From the NCBI GenBank assembly GCA_018266795.1, contig JAFDZV010000040.1, forward strand, positions 1-39,441: DNA of 39,441 nucleotides, read 5' to 3'. How positions within the stretch are numbered: the stretch's first letter is position 1; each line of letters opens with the position of its first letter. The stretch comes from Bacteroidota bacterium. Its GTDB lineage: Bacteria > Bacteroidota > Ignavibacteria > OLB7. The translations under genes were made by a program, and so were the position numbers. The notes under the pieces are model-generated. The model was not told where the DNA came from. It ran no database searches and worked only from the letters and a program-made list of their open reading frames with translations. Below are positions 8,160 to 32,414 of this stretch, one piece after another.

Positions 8160-8226
8160 GCGTCGTTTATGCCCTGAACGGGATGATACTCTGCCCGTTT
8201 AGAGAGATGATCCCCACCACATCCCG

Positions 8227-8274
8227 AAGGTAACGCGCCCCCTGATATTTTTTTTCCGCCCTTGGCGTTACCTT
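8227..8274. promoter_or_regulatory. Inverted repeat in the divergent sigma / surface-protein promoter region
   Basis: AAGGTAACGC (8227-8236) and GCGTTACCTT (8265-8274) are perfect inverted copies, separated by 28 bases that include a run of eight T. Each half reads GCGTTACCTT towards its own gene, 66-68 bases before the start codon (ATG at 8340 on +, 8159 on -). They could be two identical -10 type elements of one sigma factor, or a two-site operator. Confidence 0.55.
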
Positions 8275-8339
8275 GCACGGCCTCACCGGATCGTCTTCAT
8301 ATCGTAGTGGTCCGTATTTCTCAATCCGGCTGCCGGCCT

Positions 8340-11800: not shown

Positions 11801-11934
11801 GGTCGGTAGCAGTTAGTGGTCAGTTGTCAGTCGTTATTCGTCAGTTGTTAGTACCTTGCAAGGTTTTCTCCACTGACCACTGACCACTGACCACTGACCA
11901 CTGACCACTGACCACTGACCACTGACTACTGACT
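11801..11934. repeat. Heptad array 2 (two opposed arms between convergent genes)
   Basis: Arm A (11801-11852) carries diverged NGTYRGT heptads: GGTCGGT, then in register from 11811 AGTTAGT, GGTCAGT, TGTCAGT, CGTTATT, CGTCAGT, TGTTAGT. A perfect 12-bp palindrome, ACCTTGCAAGGT (11853-11864), follows. Arm B (11872-11934) is nine nearly identical heptads in the opposite orientation, ACTGACC seven times then ACTGACT twice. The stop codon of kbl (11926-11928) lies inside arm B, and arm A begins two bases after the stop of the upstream gene. The two arms are complementary and could fold into a long hairpin. Confidence 0.92.
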
Positions 11935-20470: not shown

Positions 20471-20794
20471 TCACGTGGTGGTGTGGCGATCGCGCTGGGC
20501 GCGACCGCGTTCGTCCCCAGACGAAATTTTCTCCCGGTGCAAGCCGCCGCGTGGGTCCGCATCGTCGCCGCCGAGGCGGGCGCCGCACTGGGTACAGAAG
20601 AACGCCACCGGCTGCAGTACCGCAGCACCGCATTGCCGGCACAGCCTGCGAAGGGGCGCACCGCAGCAGGCGCAGTACTTGTCGTCCCGGTAGCCGAATG
20701 CCAGACAGGCGCCGCAGCGCAGAGGCGTTTCATCGGTATCGTCGGCCGGTCTACCGGCGCTCGAATCGGGCTCGGTCTTTGAATGATTGCTCAT
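20471..20794 (-). CDS. Double zinc-ribbon protein
   Basis: The 107-residue product has four CxxC pairs: Cys27/30, Cys41/44, Cys52/55 and Cys67/70, in the pattern CGAC-CACC-CRQC-CTQC. This makes two adjacent zinc ribbons of the DZR type. The N-terminal ~25 residues are polar and acidic, and the C-terminal ~35 residues are charged and probably disordered; there is no membrane segment. Such modules bind nucleic acid or protein partners, and nothing in the sequence says which. It is divergent from the first ATPase-regulator gene, with 144 bases between start codons, so the two may share control. Confidence 0.75.
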   Translation of the reverse strand: MSNHSKTEPDSSAGRPADDTDETPLRCGACLAFGYRDDKYCACCGAPLRRLCRQCGAAVLQPVAFFCTQCGARLGGDDADPRGGLHREKISSGDERGRAQRDRHTTT

Positions 20795-20938
20795 GATATC
20801 TCTCGCATTGCGATCTCTCCGATACGCCCTGCGGGGTATGAGAGTTCATCACAGAAGCGATTTCAATATATTCCGAGCGATTATCTCCCTACCCCGAAGC
20901 GATTATCGGCCGGTGAACCGAAGGAATTCCTCCCCCAG

Positions 20939-23900
20939 ATGCAGCGTTCGCAGATCGATTTCCTGAACCACGGGCTTCTCCCCTTCGTTGGCCGCAGCGA
21001 GGAGGCGGAACGCATTGCACGATTCTGGGGCGAGACGTCGGACTCTCCCGGGCTCCGTGCCATGATCATCTCCGGTGAGGCCGGCATCGGCAAGAGCCGG
21101 CTGATCGAGGAGATCACGCCTCGCATCGCCAATGCCGGCGGCACGGTAATCCAGACGAAGCTCTATCCCGACGCCGGCACGTCGATCGCACCGCTGCTGG
21201 CGCGGGCGCTGACCCGTTCGGCAACTGCCGGCCACCTGCTCAAGTCGGAGCCGGAGGAGACGATGGGAAGCGTTGCCGCCGCCCTGCTCCGTATCTCCAG
21301 CCTCCGCCCTACGCTCGTGATCGTGGAGGATCTGCATCTGCTCCCGCCGGACGCCGTTCCGGACTTCGCCGCCATTCTGGATCGCCTTGCCGATGAGCCG
21401 CTCTCGCTGCTCGCCACCGCGCGCCCCGTGGAGACGCCCGCACGCGCGGTGCTGGAGCGCTATCTGGTTGAGGAGATCACGCTGCACGGACTCTCCGGGA
21501 CTGAGATCGCTCTGCTCTGCCGGTCCATCTTCGGCGAGCAGGTACGCGAGGAGATCGTGCAGACACTGCGCGAACGCACCACGGGCAATTCGCTTGCGCT
21601 CCGCTCGGCGCTGCGCGGCGCGCTGCGTACGGGCTCCCCGGGGGCCGGACCGCGCAACGGCTCCGGCGTCATGATCGATCAGAACGCCTTCGTGCGCGCG
21701 CTGGAACGGAATGTGCGCCTCCTCTCGGAGGGAATGGTGACGCATCTCACCGAACGTGAGAGGGAAGCGGCCGAACGGCTTGCGATGCTCGGCGAGGTGT
21801 TCGCGCGCGAGACGGCACAGGAGGCGCTGGCCGAGGCGGAGACCATGCTGGAGGTGCTGACATTCAAGGGGATCATCACCACGAGCGCCTCCCCTCCGCT
21901 GCCGATCACGGACACGCAGAGCAAGAGCGCTCCGCTTGCATTCACGCATTCACTGCTCCACCGGCACTTCGCGGACCGCGGACGATTCGACGCGGACATG
22001 ATGGTGCGCATTCTCGCAGCCAGGTATCCGCTCTACTCCCTTATCCCGTTCCCGTTGCTGGAGACGCGCGCCCACGAAGTAACGGCCCACCCGGAGGAGA
22101 TCGCGCTGGCCATCGAGCGCATCTTCACCATCACGGCGGTGCTCGACCGAAGCTCCAACTGGAACCGGACTGCCACGGTGATGAACGTACCGGACGCACT
22201 GGCCGAACAGACGGCGGATCGCTGGCCGGAGGAACGCCGCAGGGAGCTGCAGGCGCTCATCATCATCAACCATCTCACCATCCAGCGGCGCCTGCGCCGG
22301 GGCAACTACGGCGAACTGGTGCAGCGGTTGATGGCGCTCACGGAGAATCCGCGGAACAGCGGGTGGGGCCTGCTGCGCCTGCGCGCAATCGTCTATCGCC
22401 GCCGCCAGTTGAAGCGTGTCGATCCCGCAGCCTGCCTCAAGGCATGGAGCGAGGTGGAATCGATTGCCAACGAGTTCCCGGAACTCCGCAACACACGGCC
22501 CTACATCAGCCATCTGCGGGAGTCCGCGGAGGCCGCCAAGATTCTCAATCTCCCGGCGCGGCTGCGCGAGGTGGAGGCATTGTTCCGCGCATTCCTGGAT
22601 GACCCCGCAACCACGGAGGCCATACGCTTTCAGGCGTGGCTCACGGTCACCCCCTTCTTCCTCAACATCGCCGAATCGTCGGTGGAGCTTGCTGCGCGGC
22701 TGCGCGAGCTGTCGGAGCTGGAGGCGGTGGCCGCGCGCGAGGATACGGTGCTCGCCATCTGCAAACAGGAGCGCCTGTTCCAATCGGGCCTGTTCGACCG
22801 CTGCATCGCGTTCCACGAGGAGACGCTGCCGGTATACCGGGAGCTGGGGATGCAGATGGAAATCTTCAGCAGCACCATCATGCGCATCTTCTCGGAGATG
22901 GTGATCGGCGGAACCGCGGCGCTTGCCGACGATCAGATCGATGCATTGATCGAGATGATACCGGAGATCGCGAGACAGCAGGCGAAGAGCATCATCGGCC
23001 CGCACTTCGCCGGCGCCGCGCTCCTGCTCGGCGACTGGGAACGTGCACGGCGTTATCAGATGCTGTTCGGCAAGGAGGCTCCGTTGCTGGCCGACCGCCA
23101 GATCCTTCTCGAGGTGATCACTGCGGATATCGATTCGCTGCGCGAGACGATGGAGCGTGGAGCGCAGGAGATCGCGCACTTCAGGGCACCGCTGGCGCTG
23201 CTGATGGATCCCGCTGCCGACCTCGAGCCGGCCCGGCAGACGGTTCGGACGCTGCTCGCACGCGAGCTGCTGATGGGGGACGATCTGATCCATCACCGTG
23301 CGATGATCGAGCTTGTCGACGCAATCGATCTGGAACATCCGGGCCTGCGCTTCGGCGCCTCCGTGGAGCAGTCCGTTCACGACAGCGTGATCGCGATGCT
23401 GGAATGGTTGAACCACCGGTCGCTGCCGGCGGTGATGCGCGTGATCGTGGATCGCTTCGAACAGATCCTCACGAAGGCGGAGGTCAGAACGTGGCGTGCC
23501 GCCGTTGCGGCGCTCTCACGCCGGCGCGAGGAGGAGCGTGCGAGTTCGGCCGTTGAACAGCCGCTGCACGTGTCGCTCCTCGGCACCATCACCGTGCAGG
23601 CAGCGGGCCAGGAGGAACCGGCACGCGTACGCGGCACGCAGCTCTGCACAATGCTTGGCCTGATGGCCGCCGATCACATGCTTGCAAAGCCCCTCTCTGC
23701 GAACGAGTTCGCATCCATCGTGTTCGGTTCCGAGCGCGACCCGGACAGTGTGCGCAAGTCCATGAACTTCGCCGTGTTCCGCCTGCGCGAACTGCTGAGC
23801 CCCGAAGCGATCTCCACTGCCGGTGAAACGCCGGTGCTGGATCTGGCGCACGTGGATGTGGATCTGATACGCGCCCACCGCCATCTCACAACCGCAACGG

Positions 23901-24244
23901 AGGCGATGCGTGAGGGGGCATTGGTGCGCGCCCTGCCGGAACTGGTGGCCGCGCTGGCGATATGCGGCGGCAGAGTCCCCTTCCCGACCCTGTACGACGA
24001 GTTCTTCGAGGCCGTGCGCGAGGACTTCGAGAGCGAGCTCCGCTCGACAACCATCAGGCTTGCCCGCGCTCTGCAGCGCGAGGGAGACGGAGCCGCCGCC
24101 GAAGAGGTGCTGCGCCTGGCGTTCGCGGCAATGCCGGATGACGAAGAGATCGCCGAGCTGCTGCAGGATGCGCTCGTCTCGCTTGGCAAGCGCACGGAGG
24201 CCCGCCGCATCGGCATGCGGGCGGAGATGGAGGGGATGAGTTAG
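20939..24244 (+). CDS. AAA_16 ATPase - winged helix - BTAD regulator (paralogue 1)
   Basis: The 1101-residue product probably starts at the ATG at 20939 (MQRSQIDFLNHGLLPFVGRS), because the paralogue begins at the same place relative to LPFxGR. Domains: an AAA_16/STAND-like NTPase at ~15-300 with Walker A SGEAGIGKSRL (~45-55) and Walker B TLVIVEDLHLL (~125-135); a long helical, TPR-like middle (~300-860); an OmpR/SARP-type winged helix (~876-965, LHVSLLGTITV ... RDPDSVRKSMNFAVFRLREL); and a bacterial transcriptional activator domain, BTAD (~970-1090). It is likely a signal-sensing transcription factor. Known SARP-ATPase fusions carry the DNA-binding part at the N-terminus, so this order is reversed. 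The last codon (Ser) and TAG stop lie in the first heptad of a repeat array. The frame is open upstream to 20783. Confidence 0.85.
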   Translation: MQRSQIDFLNHGLLPFVGRSEEAERIARFWGETSDSPGLRAMIISGEAGIGKSRLIEEITPRIANAGGTVIQTKLYPDAGTSIAPLLARALTRSATAGHLLKSEPEETMGSVAAALLRISSLRPTLVIVEDLHLLPPDAVPDFAAILDRLADEPLSLLATARPVETPARAVLERYLVEEITLHGLSGTEIALLCRSIFGEQVREEIVQTLRERTTGNSLALRSALRGALRTGSPGAGPRNGSGVMIDQNAFVRALERNVRLLSEGMVTHLTEREREAAERLAMLGEVFARETAQEALAEAETMLEVLTFKGIITTSASPPLPITDTQSKSAPLAFTHSLLHRHFADRGRFDADMMVRILAARYPLYSLIPFPLLETRAHEVTAHPEEIALAIERIFTITAVLDRSSNWNRTATVMNVPDALAEQTADRWPEERRRELQALIIINHLTIQRRLRRGNYGELVQRLMALTENPRNSGWGLLRLRAIVYRRRQLKRVDPAACLKAWSEVESIANEFPELRNTRPYISHLRESAEAAKILNLPARLREVEALFRAFLDDPATTEAIRFQAWLTVTPFFLNIAESSVELAARLRELSELEAVAAREDTVLAICKQERLFQSGLFDRCIAFHEETLPVYRELGMQMEIFSSTIMRIFSEMVIGGTAALADDQIDALIEMIPEIARQQAKSIIGPHFAGAALLLGDWERARRYQMLFGKEAPLLADRQILLEVITADIDSLRETMERGAQEIAHFRAPLALLMDPAADLEPARQTVRTLLARELLMGDDLIHHRAMIELVDAIDLEHPGLRFGASVEQSVHDSVIAMLEWLNHRSLPAVMRVIVDRFEQILTKAEVRTWRAAVAALSRRREEERASSAVEQPLHVSLLGTITVQAAGQEEPARVRGTQLCTMLGLMAADHMLAKPLSANEFASIVFGSERDPDSVRKSMNFAVFRLRELLSPEAISTAGETPVLDLAHVDVDLIRAHRHLTTATEAMREGALVRALPELVAALAICGGRVPFPTLYDEFFEAVREDFESELRSTTIRLARALQREGDGAAAEEVLRLAFAAMPDDEEIAELLQDALVSLGKRTEARRIGMRAEMEGMS

Positions 24245-24564
24245 TGGCCGGTGGTCAGTGGTTAGTGATCAGTCGTTTGTTGTCAGTAGTTAGTGGTCGG
24301 TTGTCAGTCGTTAGTTGTCCCGCTCGCTGGTCGGCCGTTGTACTGCCGATCACTCAACGTCCTCACCACACCCGCCGCTCGAGGCCAACACGCAAGGATC
24401 GCCACGGCTTCGCTGCGCTCGCATCGCGACCACCACAGGTGAATCATTGCGGACGAATGCCCCGGCCCGGTCGCGGTTGATCTCGCGATGGCGCAAGGCC
24501 GCGACACGAATGACGAGCGACTACCAACCACTGACTACCGACTACCGACGAATCATCACTGATT
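24239..24564. repeat. Heptad array 4 (opposed arms with ~190-bp spacer)
   Basis: Arm A (24239-24315) is eleven consecutive diverged heptads in strict 7-base register, from AGTTAGT to CGTTAGT. Arm B (24516-24564) is seven heptads in opposite orientation, ending ACTGATT. Arm A begins inside the stop codon region of the ATPase gene (TAG at 24242-24244) and arm B begins inside the stop codon of the globin gene (TTA at 24563-24565). The spacer contains no gene, but 24396-24430 resembles a common interspersed GATCGCCACGG...CGCTCGC-type repeat. Confidence 0.88.
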
Positions 24565-28708: not shown

Positions 28709-28879
28709 CATTTCAACGGACGTGGGGGCATGGCACTGGCGCTGGGGACGCCACGCGTAACAAGCAACGCTGCAAGGGGTTATGTTCATCCTCACAATGT
28801 TGATGTTCGTTGTACAATGTACAGTGCAGCGCTTACACTTGGCCGCCCGGCACTTGCAGTCGTGCCGGAGTGTGCTTAC

Positions 28880-29003
28880 AGTTGGTGGTCAGTGGTCAGT
28901 GGTCAGTGGTCAGTGGTCAGTGGTCAGTGGTCAGTGGTCAGTGGAAAATGCATCAGCGACTGACTACGAACTACTGACAACTGACCATCAACAACCGACT
29001 ACT
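28880..29003. repeat. Heptad array 5 (perfect arm plus diverged arm)
   Basis: Arm A (28880-28942) is AGTTGGT followed by eight perfect GGTCAGT units. A 16-base spacer containing ATGCAT follows. Arm B (28959-29003) is in the opposite orientation: ACTGACT, ACGAACT, ACTGACA, ACTGACC, ATCAACA, ACCGACT and a partial unit. The arms can pair over about 45 bases. The array ends 114 bases before the start codon of the second regulator. Confidence 0.93.
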
Positions 29004-29117
29004 CTCTTTTATCATGGACGTTCGCCCGTAAAGCCGGATATTCGATTCGGGATCCGCACTGCGCCGCCAATCCGGAACGCACGACGAGAATCAGGCGAGC
29101 ATCGAATCAATTGTCGC

Positions 29118-32100
29118 ATGGAAACGCTACGCGCCGTTACACAGAACGCCGCTCTGCCGTTTATGGGCAGGGACTCGGAGTTGCAGAACCTGGTGGACCT
29201 GTGGCGAGCCACGGATGATGCGCCGGGCATGCTTGCTCTGTTGCTGAGCGGAGAGGCGGGGATCGGCAAGAGCCGGCTGATGGAGGAGCTCGCCCGGCGT
29301 GTTTCGCTGCTGCGCGGCTCCGTGATACAGGTGAAGCTCTATCCGGAGTCATCCACATCGCTCGTGGAGCCGTTCGTTCATGCGCTCTGGCAGCTCTCGC
29401 TCAACCTCCCTGCCGCGCGCATCGCGGATGACCGGACCATCGACGCCGTGGCGCATGCAATCGGTCGCGTTGCGCGTGTCCGTCGCACACTCGTGGTGAT
29501 CGAGGACGTGCACCTGCTCGCGGCGGAGAACAGGGCGGATACGCAGCGGCTGCTCTCACGGCTGGTGGAGGAACAGATCCTCTGCATCCTCACGGCACGG
29601 CCGGTGGAGCTTCAGATTGCGCCGGTTGTGGATGATGTGATCACGCATCGCATGACGCTGCGTGGCCTGACCGCGGAACAGATCCACGCGATGATCGCGA
29701 ACATGGGGCACATCACCAGCCCTGCGCTTGCGCGGGAACTGCACGCGGTTACCACGGGCAATCCGCTTGCGCTTCGTTCGGCGCTCCGCAGCGCTCTCCG
29801 CTTCGGCTTGTTCGATGCCGCCGAAGCAGGCGACAACCCGGGCGGCGATGTTGCGATCGAGCAGATGATCGGTCCCGCGATGAAGATCCTTTCCGAGGGA
29901 ATGATCGCGCACCTGCTTCCCGAGGAACGCATCGCCGCGGAACGGCTGGCAGTGCTCGGAGAGGTGTTCGCCCACGAGACGGCCGCGGCAATCGTGGACG
30001 AGGCGGATCTGCTTCGCCTGATCACCAAGGGAATCATCGCACATACCGACACTCCGGTTGCGGCACTCGGACGGATTCGCAGCACGGACCCGCTCCTCGC
30101 CTATACTCACACGCTCCTGCATCACTACTTCATCGACCGCGCCGATGTGGATGCGGATCTTCTGGTACGCGTGATCGGCACGGGGCTCCCGCTCTACTCC
30201 ACCCAGCCGTTTCTACTCCTGGAGGAAAGCCGCGCCGATCTCGGTCCCGTCAACGAACTGATCGTTGATGCGATCGAGAGAGCGGTGGACATCGCGAACC
30301 TGCTGGACGCAACCGCGGACTGGCGCAAGGCCCAGCGCATCGCGGCCTGCGCCGCGCGCATTCTGCGCGTTCCGGCTTCAACGGCCGGCGATCCCGGGGA
30401 GCGAGCGCTCCGCATCAAGGTGCTCGGCTGCCAGCTCCGGCTTCAACGCCGCAACGTGTTCACCGAGCTGTTCAGCCGTCAGTTGAACGAGCTACTGGAG
30501 CTGACGGCGAACCCGGCAACGCCTGTGGAGGGAGCGGACAGAATTCACGCGCTGGCGTTCGTCTACCGGCAGCGCGATCCGGCACGAGGTGAAAGCGCGA
30601 TGTCGCCCGAGACATGGGACGAGGTGCAACATATCGTGGAGCGATGGAGCGACGTTCGCTACCACACGAGCCACGTGCTCTATCTGCGCGATGTCGCATA
30701 CATCGCCGAGGGGCTGTCCGACGTTCGTACGCTGCGCCTGGTGGAGAATCGATGGAAGGAGATCAGGGAAGGGGTGCTGTTGGACGACGAGCGGCGGCAG
30801 ATCATTCTGAACGACATGGCAGGCTGCATGCTGCAGTTGTTCGAGACGCCGGAGGAGGTTGCCCAGCGGCACCGTGCGGTCAATGCACTGATCGCGGAAG
30901 AGGATCGCATCACATCCGGCACTCGGATGCACATCGTGAACTTCATGGCGGAGATCGGGCGGCTGAACGAGATTCGCGAGCAGACGCTGGTGGCCGCCCG
31001 TAAGCTGGAGGAGATGGGGCTTCCCGGTATGGCAACCAATTGCCGGTTGCTGTACCTGATTGGCGACGTTGCCGCCGGCGCCGAAATGAACGAAGTCCGC
31101 GCGGCACTGGAGGCGCTTATCCAGCACAGCCCCGAGCACCTGCGCCAGGTGTTCCGTTCCAACTGCGACGATGAGCTGGCGCTTGCCGCGTTGCTGCGCG
31201 GCGAATATCGCTGGATAGGCGAGCACCGCGTGCGCATGCCGGACACTCCGTTCTCCGCGGGAGCACGCATCGTCAACCTGTTCCTCCTTCTCGCCAACGA
31301 GGAACCCGCGGAGCGTATTCTCGCAATGGCCGGGAACCTGGAGAAGGACGGCTTTGCCGAAGATGATGTCACGACCTTCCTGGCCGATGTGCTGGATCCC
31401 GCGTCCACCATGGAACGGGCCGCGGCCGCGGTTCGGGAACGCTGCCTGCGCATGCGTCTGCGGATGCGCCACATGCTGGACCCGTTGATCGTTCTCCACG
31501 CCGCGAACATCGCCATGCGCGAGCGCGGATGGGACCTCGCCGCCGCCGCAACTCTGGAGATCGGCTCCATGGTGGAATCGATCGGCGCCTGGTTCATCGA
31601 ACGCGGACTGTATGCATACGTCGGACCGCTCCTGAACTACGGCGCCGGGCACGTGGATGGATCGACGCTCGAGCGATGGAGCGAGTGGTCCAGCAAACGT
31701 CCGCACGTGCAGACCGAACCGCAGGAACGGAATGCCGAATCGGTCGTGAAGCTCTCGATGTTCGGAACGATCGAGGTGAAGCCGCCGGACAGTGAGGCGG
31801 TGCGGCCGCGAGGCGCGCGCATCAGGACCCTGCTCGGCGTGCTGGTGGCCGATCGCATGTTGAAGAAGCCGCTGACACCGCGCGAGTTTCAGGCGTGGGC
31901 TGCAGGTGAGGAACGCGATCCGGATGGCGCGCGGAACACGATCAACGTAAGCGTGCATCGCCTTCGCGATCTGCTACACCATGATGCCATCGATACTCGC
32001 GGCGGCAAGCCGCAGCTGGATACCCTGCGCGTGCAGGTGGACCTGCTGGATGCACACACGGCAATGAACGCGGCGGACGAGGCGATGCGCGAGGGACTTC

Positions 32101-32414
32101 TTCCGCGTGCCAACGAATCGCTGCTGGAGGCGCTCCGCATCGCCAACGGCGAGATCCCCTTCCCCGGCCTGTACGATGAGCTGTTCGAGGGCTTGCGCGA
32201 GGAGTTCGAGACGCGCATCCGATCGCTGGTGCTGCGCCTGGCAACGCAGTTGGAACACGCAGGCGATACCAGCGGCGCGGAGGAACTTCTGCGGCATGCG
32301 CTGGAATCGATGCCGGGCGATGAGGAGATCGCGGAGCGCCTGAAGAGCATCCTGGTCCTTCTGGGGCAGCGCGCGGAGGCCAGCCGGCTCAACATGCATT
32401 GGGAGGAGGCGTAA
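29118..32414 (+). CDS. AAA_16 ATPase - winged helix - BTAD regulator (paralogue 2)
   Basis: The 1098-residue product is a full-length paralogue of the 20939-24244 protein. Shared blocks run the whole length: GEAGIGKSRLMEEL (Walker A, ~44-57), TLVVIEDVHLL (Walker B, ~124), GNPLALRSALRSALR, LGEVFAHETA, then a helical middle. The C-terminal winged helix (~877, VKLSMFGTIEV ... RDPDGARNTINVSVHRLRDL) and BTAD (~973, VDLLDAHTAMNAADEAMREG; FPGLYDELFEGLREEFETRI) follow. I chose the ATG at 29118 because it matches the paralogue's N-terminus (METLRAVTQNAALPFMGRDS). The frame is also open through heptad array 5 back to 28782. It is likely an NTP-dependent transcription factor with an unknown signal. No obvious target gene is adjacent except the divergent T9SS protein gene. 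Confidence 0.85.
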   Translation: METLRAVTQNAALPFMGRDSELQNLVDLWRATDDAPGMLALLLSGEAGIGKSRLMEELARRVSLLRGSVIQVKLYPESSTSLVEPFVHALWQLSLNLPAARIADDRTIDAVAHAIGRVARVRRTLVVIEDVHLLAAENRADTQRLLSRLVEEQILCILTARPVELQIAPVVDDVITHRMTLRGLTAEQIHAMIANMGHITSPALARELHAVTTGNPLALRSALRSALRFGLFDAAEAGDNPGGDVAIEQMIGPAMKILSEGMIAHLLPEERIAAERLAVLGEVFAHETAAAIVDEADLLRLITKGIIAHTDTPVAALGRIRSTDPLLAYTHTLLHHYFIDRADVDADLLVRVIGTGLPLYSTQPFLLLEESRADLGPVNELIVDAIERAVDIANLLDATADWRKAQRIAACAARILRVPASTAGDPGERALRIKVLGCQLRLQRRNVFTELFSRQLNELLELTANPATPVEGADRIHALAFVYRQRDPARGESAMSPETWDEVQHIVERWSDVRYHTSHVLYLRDVAYIAEGLSDVRTLRLVENRWKEIREGVLLDDERRQIILNDMAGCMLQLFETPEEVAQRHRAVNALIAEEDRITSGTRMHIVNFMAEIGRLNEIREQTLVAARKLEEMGLPGMATNCRLLYLIGDVAAGAEMNEVRAALEALIQHSPEHLRQVFRSNCDDELALAALLRGEYRWIGEHRVRMPDTPFSAGARIVNLFLLLANEEPAERILAMAGNLEKDGFAEDDVTTFLADVLDPASTMERAAAAVRERCLRMRLRMRHMLDPLIVLHAANIAMRERGWDLAAAATLEIGSMVESIGAWFIERGLYAYVGPLLNYGAGHVDGSTLERWSEWSSKRPHVQTEPQERNAESVVKLSMFGTIEVKPPDSEAVRPRGARIRTLLGVLVADRMLKKPLTPREFQAWAAGEERDPDGARNTINVSVHRLRDLLHHDAIDTRGGKPQLDTLRVQVDLLDAHTAMNAADEAMREGLLPRANESLLEALRIANGEIPFPGLYDELFEGLREEFETRIRSLVLRLATQLEHAGDTSGAEELLRHALESMPGDEEIAERLKSILVLLGQRAEASRLNMHWEEA

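Follow-up and report, generated by a model that had tools for sequence, protein, structure and literature searches.

The divergent gene pair considered here raises the question of whether one ECF sigma factor may read two mirrored promoters, one leading into its own operon and the other into the gene of a large surface protein. The pair is located in the window, by which is meant the whole 39,441-nucleotide stretch of Bacteroidota DNA that was analysed, and its features are collected in Table 1.

Table 1. Genes and predicted promoter elements of the divergent locus, in window coordinates
Feature	Position	Strand	Basis
ECF sigma factor gene, 206 aa	7539..8159	-	Pfam and NCBIfam profile matches
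Putative anti-sigma factor, single membrane pass, 256 aa	6772..7542	-	overlap, AlphaFold, weak structural matches
Surface protein, 1152 aa	8340..11798	+	Pfam ASH, HYDIN-like Ig, Por_Secre_tail
Predicted -35 element, sigma-operon promoter (GCGTTACCTT)	8227..8236	-	sequence, conservation, motif search
Predicted -10 block, sigma-operon promoter (GGATCATCT)	8205..8213	-	GATC begins 14 nt past -35 block
Predicted -35 element, surface-protein promoter (GCGTTACCTT)	8265..8274	+	sequence, motif search
Predicted -10 block, surface-protein promoter (GGATCGTCT, CGTC inside)	8288..8296	+	matched block and shuffles
T8 run separating the -35 elements	8248..8255	.	sequence

The sigma factor contains the Pfam domains sigma70 r2 (residues 31-98) and r4_2 (124-175), both above cut-off, and scores 76 bits against the NCBIfam sigma70-ECF model (cut-off 42.9); within its 206 aa only the sigma2 and sigma4 domains are present, as in ECF (group IV) factors. 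Its recognition helix, RGETLGSVKMRAMRAR, in which K and M are the variable contact residues, is kept in orthologs and differs in paralogs. The downstream gene overlaps the sigma stop codon by 4 nt, and a -4 overlap was likewise found at most of the paralog loci examined. For its 256-aa product, AlphaFold (12 sequences) predicted helices at 3-14, 20-32 and 34-74 as well as 118-141; the three N-terminal helices are modelled confidently over about the first 50 residues, the helix at 118-141 is of membrane length, and the tail is disordered. The top four PDB rows obtained with VIA-align were cytoplasmic domains of anti-sigma factors (MucA with Z 7.0 and 6.8, RsiW with 6.5, RseA with 5.4), followed by an unrelated row at Z 4.2, and the Foldseek matches were weak (E 3.2 or worse). 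Pfam and NCBIfam scans gave no family match for this protein, and a sequence-profile search of the PDB gave no match. On the modelled fold, the product is likely, though tentatively so, a putative anti-sigma factor.

The divergent gene encodes a surface protein with repeated ASH/choice-of-anchor-D Ig-like domains (NCBIfam choice_anch_D, 172.7 bits in 7 stretches) and a C-terminal T9SS sorting domain. The latter, detected as Por_Secre_tail (PF18962, 29.0 bits, cut-off 27), is the feature that marks T9SS cargo, and TIGR04183 scored 23 bits, exactly its cut-off. Elsewhere in the window, short tandem repeats on a 7-base unit (such as GTGGTCA, CCACTGA, GACTACT) occupy positions 1-71, 11812-11933, 24251-24319 and 28885-28944, the last of them extending into the beginning of a large predicted ORF, and TCAGTAGTCAG repeats of a similar kind are located upstream of sigma locus L044 in another genus. 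Two similar proteins of ~1150-1210 aa, encoded at 20783-24244 and 28782-32414 (+), carry a P-loop GEAGIGKSRL near the N-terminus and are possibly large ATPase-type regulators.

Within the 180 bp that separate the sigma ATG (8159) from the surface-protein ATG (8340), the sequence-only reading had described a perfect 10-bp outward inverted repeat with a 28-base spacer and a T8 run, and this arrangement was confirmed, the arms being AAGGTAACGC at 8227-8236 and GCGTTACCTT at 8265-8274; the distances of 66 and 68 bases that it gave from arm to start codon are corrected by recounting to 67 nt on the sigma side and 65 nt on the surface-protein side. When the region was dinucleotide-shuffled 5000 times, a 10-bp inverted repeat arose in 39 of the shuffles (0.8%), and the arms by themselves are uncommon but not decisive. 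A second matched, -10-like block, which that reading had not mentioned, is located at equal offset on both sides (GGATCnTCT, 8213-8205 minus and 8288-8296 plus). Aligned outward from the arms, the two strands read GCGTTACCTT-N14-GATCATCT toward sigma and GCGTTACCTT-N14-GATCGTCT toward the surface protein. With the arms given, a second block this good was obtained in 31 of 20000 flank shuffles, and arms and second block jointly in 0 of 5000, so that each arm would form the -35 part of a whole ECF-type promoter. Judged by its sequence, the intergenic region is a pair of complete outward ECF-type promoters, with -35 CGTTACCTT, a 14-nt spacer and -10 GATC(n)TC, and GTTACCTT-N14-GATCnTCT occurs with zero mismatches only at these two sites in the 6.0-Mb genome (5.97 Mb, 71 contigs). 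The symmetry had originally been taken as the clue; the matched elements were borne out, but it is the two ordinary outward promoters that matter and not the symmetry itself.

The classic ECF signature of AAC at -35 and CGT at -10 is not seen here, the -35 being GTTACC and CGTC being found in the plus-strand -10 only. According to the available sections of one review, AAC/CGT was an early hallmark of ECF promoters that is no longer defining (PMC8103513). The T8 run is possibly an UP-like element, and A/T runs of 5-13 nt were present in all 21 of the 21 sigma upstream regions examined.

Orthologs of the sigma factor, at 60% aa identity, were identified in two of the four other family genomes (G003 and G004, from another genus), where the divergent gene encodes a protein of 1122-1124 aa, the one in G004 being typed as ASH/choice-of-anchor-D. 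On the sigma side, CGTTACCTT-N14-GATC is kept in otherwise different intergenic regions; conservation is lower on the surface-protein side, with CGTTACTTT-N14-GATC in G003 or AATC in place of GATC in G004. Taken singly, the two ortholog pairs are no better than shuffles (p 0.81 and 0.25), and they carry weight because the same motif recurs at the same spacing.

A search of the genome for further promoters of this type, as the sequence-only reading had proposed, yielded one extra strict match at C10:195478, 220 nt upstream of a lipoprotein gene. Its homolog in G004 is located just past the surface-protein gene, with CGTTACCAT-N14-GATC 212 nt upstream, and CGTTACTAT-N14-GATC precedes the G003 homolog by ~208 nt; as background, GTTAC-N17-GATC occurs 4 times per 800,000 control strand-bases. 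Pfam and NCBIfam scans assigned the lipoprotein to no confident family, and a Spy/CpxP-like identity, considered on account of an LTxxQ-type motif, was dropped, Pfam LTXXQ reaching only E 0.5 in one homolog.

Among 61 genomes, the strict pattern was matched 16 times in 13 genomes, including 5 times at these promoters, and its reversed control once. The pattern CGTTACYWT-N14-GATC, which was widened after two lipoprotein sites were known and leaves the G004 surface side (AATC) uncounted, had 9 matches in the five family genomes versus 1 for the reversed-pattern control. Eight of the nine precede the sigma operon, the surface-protein gene or the lipoprotein gene, all in the three genomes with a window-type sigma, and the two family genomes lacking such a sigma had 0 matches. 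The ninth, on the minus strand of the window's own genome (G000:C41:90214-90240), is possibly a fourth target or a chance match.

Family genomes contain 12-32 ECF matches each, and mirrored promoters were surveyed at 81 ECF loci of several families with a score for outward-geometry pairs (maximum 14). Pairs scoring 13 or more of 14 were present at 17 of the 81 loci versus 6 of 310 control regions, the latter taken from reading frames of at least 250 aa, a crude criterion that lets in spurious ORFs. The mirrored-pair signal sits in one sigma clade, to which the window sigma belongs (16/36 loci versus 1/45 other ECF loci), the clade having been delimited by recognition-helix residues after the scores were known. 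Over all 81 ECF loci, the whole score distribution did not differ significantly from controls (p 0.06), and the pair at most paralog loci taken singly was no better than shuffles. A first matched-pair search without the outward geometry gave nothing convincing beyond the window because palindromes, together with the repeat read in reverse, swamped it. Different motifs are mirrored at different loci, for instance CTGTCAGG-N14-TGCGTC on both sides at L056 and L058, TTAGGTTC-N11-ATTGTC at L051, GTCAGGGT-N12-(T/C)GTGTC at L063 and TGTAAGGA-N11-CAATCG at L076. When intergenic halves were cut at the A/T run rather than at the motif, in 21 hand-chosen loci each with a neighbouring divergent frame, pairing of 13 or more was found for 10 of 21 own-locus combinations versus 16 of 420 cross-locus ones, and in the window's genome alone for 5/8 versus 1/56.

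The divergent partners are ASH/T9SS proteins, DUF7948/SBBP/PKD proteins, a protein with a weak OmpA match, and PD40 lipoproteins. Many partner lipoproteins (L051, L056, L058, L057, L066, L094, L099, L105, L117, L182, L161, L171) have in common a C-x-D-x-(L/F/I) start right after the lipobox cysteine, as in GCKDQLP, GCRDDFP and SCKDRLP, which is perhaps a surface-export signal. The upstream region of L165 differs from other loci in having two overlapping TGTAAGG motifs that are convergent and not outward.

Across loci, the -35 sequence appears to follow the recognition helix. With the two variable helix residues written as x1 x2 and the -35 as GT-b3-A-b5-b6, sequence comparison indicates that x2 predicts base 3 and x1 predicts bases 5-6. 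The combination KM goes with GTTACC (window and orthologs), RT with GTGAYG, RM with GTTATG, RK with GTCAC, WM with GTTAGG, WT with GTAAGG, and WK, WA and WQ with GTCAGG; the exceptions are L158 (WT, but TGTCAGG) and L060 (YA, but GTAAGG). In the first set of loci, TGTNAGG was present at 18 of 18 W loci; of the other ECF loci 4 of 45 had it, as did 13 of 310 controls. The residue-base rule was recorded before new genomes were fetched, and 19 new loci were then examined, from which L172-L175 (helix RA or KT) fell outside the clade and were left out, so that 15 W loci were counted. TGTNAGG was found at 14 of these 15, L163 being the one without it, and the predicted base was present in 13 of the 14, the misfit being L158. 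Four of the 15 (L155, L168, L170, L182) had clean outward pairs on the two strands, others having the motif on one side only or lacking a long divergent frame.

In a tree built with these residues masked, the pairing of residue M with base T arose on only 3 distinct branches, of which 2 had good support; so small a number does not permit a significance test, and related sequences are not independent. The base labels of this tree were first filled from the rule and corrected only at known conflicts, the RT, RM and W rows then being checked against sequence, and RK sites, L059 above all, were weaker input. The same residue-base logic of the -35 is described for SigE and SigW in the accessible part of a structural report, in which SigE S172 and SigW T171 contact base -34, and SigE R171 and SigW K170 contact bases -31/-32 (PMC6713349). 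The x1 and x2 positions align to those residues, and setting b3 as -34 places b5 and b6 at -32 and -31.

Taken at the level of sequence, the -10 blocks, the orthologs, the co-occurrence of motif and sigma, the differing mirrored motifs of paralogous loci and the covariation with the helix support the earlier proposal that the sigma factor drives its own operon and the surface protein from matched elements. It is very probable that the adjacent ECF sigma reads both outward promoters, in autoregulation and for the surface protein, together with that of the lipoprotein, under the control of a putative membrane anti-sigma factor. One promoter would drive the sigma/anti-sigma operon, giving positive autoregulation, the other would drive the divergent ASH-repeat surface protein, and a third copy elsewhere in the genome would drive the lipoprotein gene. 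The anti-sigma factor made from the sigma operon would keep the sigma inactive at the inner membrane until an envelope signal arrives, and the freed sigma would then raise its own level and deploy the surface protein. An autoregulated module is also what the sequence suggests in that a sigma-type promoter, conserved and covarying with the recognition residues, precedes the sigma gene.

A narrower role, in which the window sigma uses one promoter only (most likely that of its own operon) and the other arm has decayed or serves a paralogous sigma, is improbable. It would agree with the lower conservation of the surface-protein side in orthologs and with six loci (L044, L045, L046, L048, L049, L050) where the motif is confined to the sigma side and no neighbouring divergent gene encodes an exported protein; however, the two halves in the window match the consensus to the same degree, both orthologs keep the surface-side site, and cross-locus matching is rare. 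Perfect inverted repeats between divergent genes are typical of operators, and the repeat might then bind another dimeric DNA-binding regulator between two housekeeping promoters with the sigma uninvolved. We regard such an operator as highly improbable, given that the arms are 28 nt apart, that arm distance and sequence vary in orthologs and paralogs while the -35/-10 spacing is common within a locus, that the motif also occurs singly at the same spacing upstream of the lipoprotein, and that its sequence tracks the sigma recognition residues. A chance inverted repeat or a transcription terminator was rejected: despite the frequency of such repeats in shuffles and the T run close by, the run is in the loop and not past the stem, and neither origin would lead one to expect the matched second block and its conservation.

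The proposed sigma-driven module resembles the RpoE/RseA, SigW/RsiW and AlgU/MucA operons in its sigma2+sigma4-only sigma with an own-type promoter upstream, and in an overlapping downstream gene for a putative single-pass membrane protein whose predicted N-terminal fold may be MucA/RsiW/RseA-like. Unlike classic autoregulated ECF operons, it has a -35 of GTTACC and not of AAC type, a mirrored second promoter for a divergent ASH/T9SS protein, and a sigma from a lineage-expanded set with different private motifs. Divergent units under promoters of one ECF sigma are also described, in the available part of the review, for alphaproteobacterial EcfG/NepR-PhyR (PMC8103513), but there the regulon is global and PhyR, an anti-anti-sigma, is encoded by the divergent gene, whereas here the regulon looks tiny and the divergent gene is that of an exported structural protein. 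SigI factors of cellulosome-forming clostridia are likewise paralogous alternative sigmas with limited cross-talk that serve cell-surface machinery; they belong to a different sigma family, and the accessible text describes no mirrored divergent promoter scheme (PMC6056542). Another ECF sigma tied to type IX secretion is Porphyromonas gingivalis SigP (PorX/PorY cascade; PMC4800418), which is reported to regulate the secretion machinery, whereas the predicted target in the window is a T9SS cargo gene beside the sigma. No description of such a module was found in open-licence literature searches on ECF sigmas with divergent partners, T9SS and Kapabacteria.

The principle is not new, since it is already established that ECF sigmas autoregulate, pair with anti-sigmas and follow a residue-nucleotide code, with ~55% of ECFs predicted to be autoregulated, according to the sections available (PMC8103513). 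What is new is a set of paralogs in one genome, each with a self-reporting promoter pair. On sequence grounds the variant appears to be an expanded set of sigma/anti-sigma modules, many of them with a divergent exported protein under mirrored private promoters. We lean slightly towards the view that the lineage has multiplied a sigma/anti-sigma/exported-protein module into private circuits with mirrored promoters, each sigma copy driving itself and, if it has a divergent exported partner, that partner too, and specificity being set mainly by two helix residues that determine three -35 bases. Among the resulting predictions are the residue changes that would redirect a GTCAGG-reading sigma to GTAAGG or GTTAGG promoters and, for the window sigma, a regulon comprising about three transcription units, and candidate surface proteins under switched deployment can be named. 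Orthogonal sigma-promoter pairs may come from such a set. Since the promoter pairs report on their own sigma, its specificity would be readable from sequence in uncultured bacteria and, with a private circuit per sigma copy, the genome may have several switches, insulated from one another, that serve different surface proteins.
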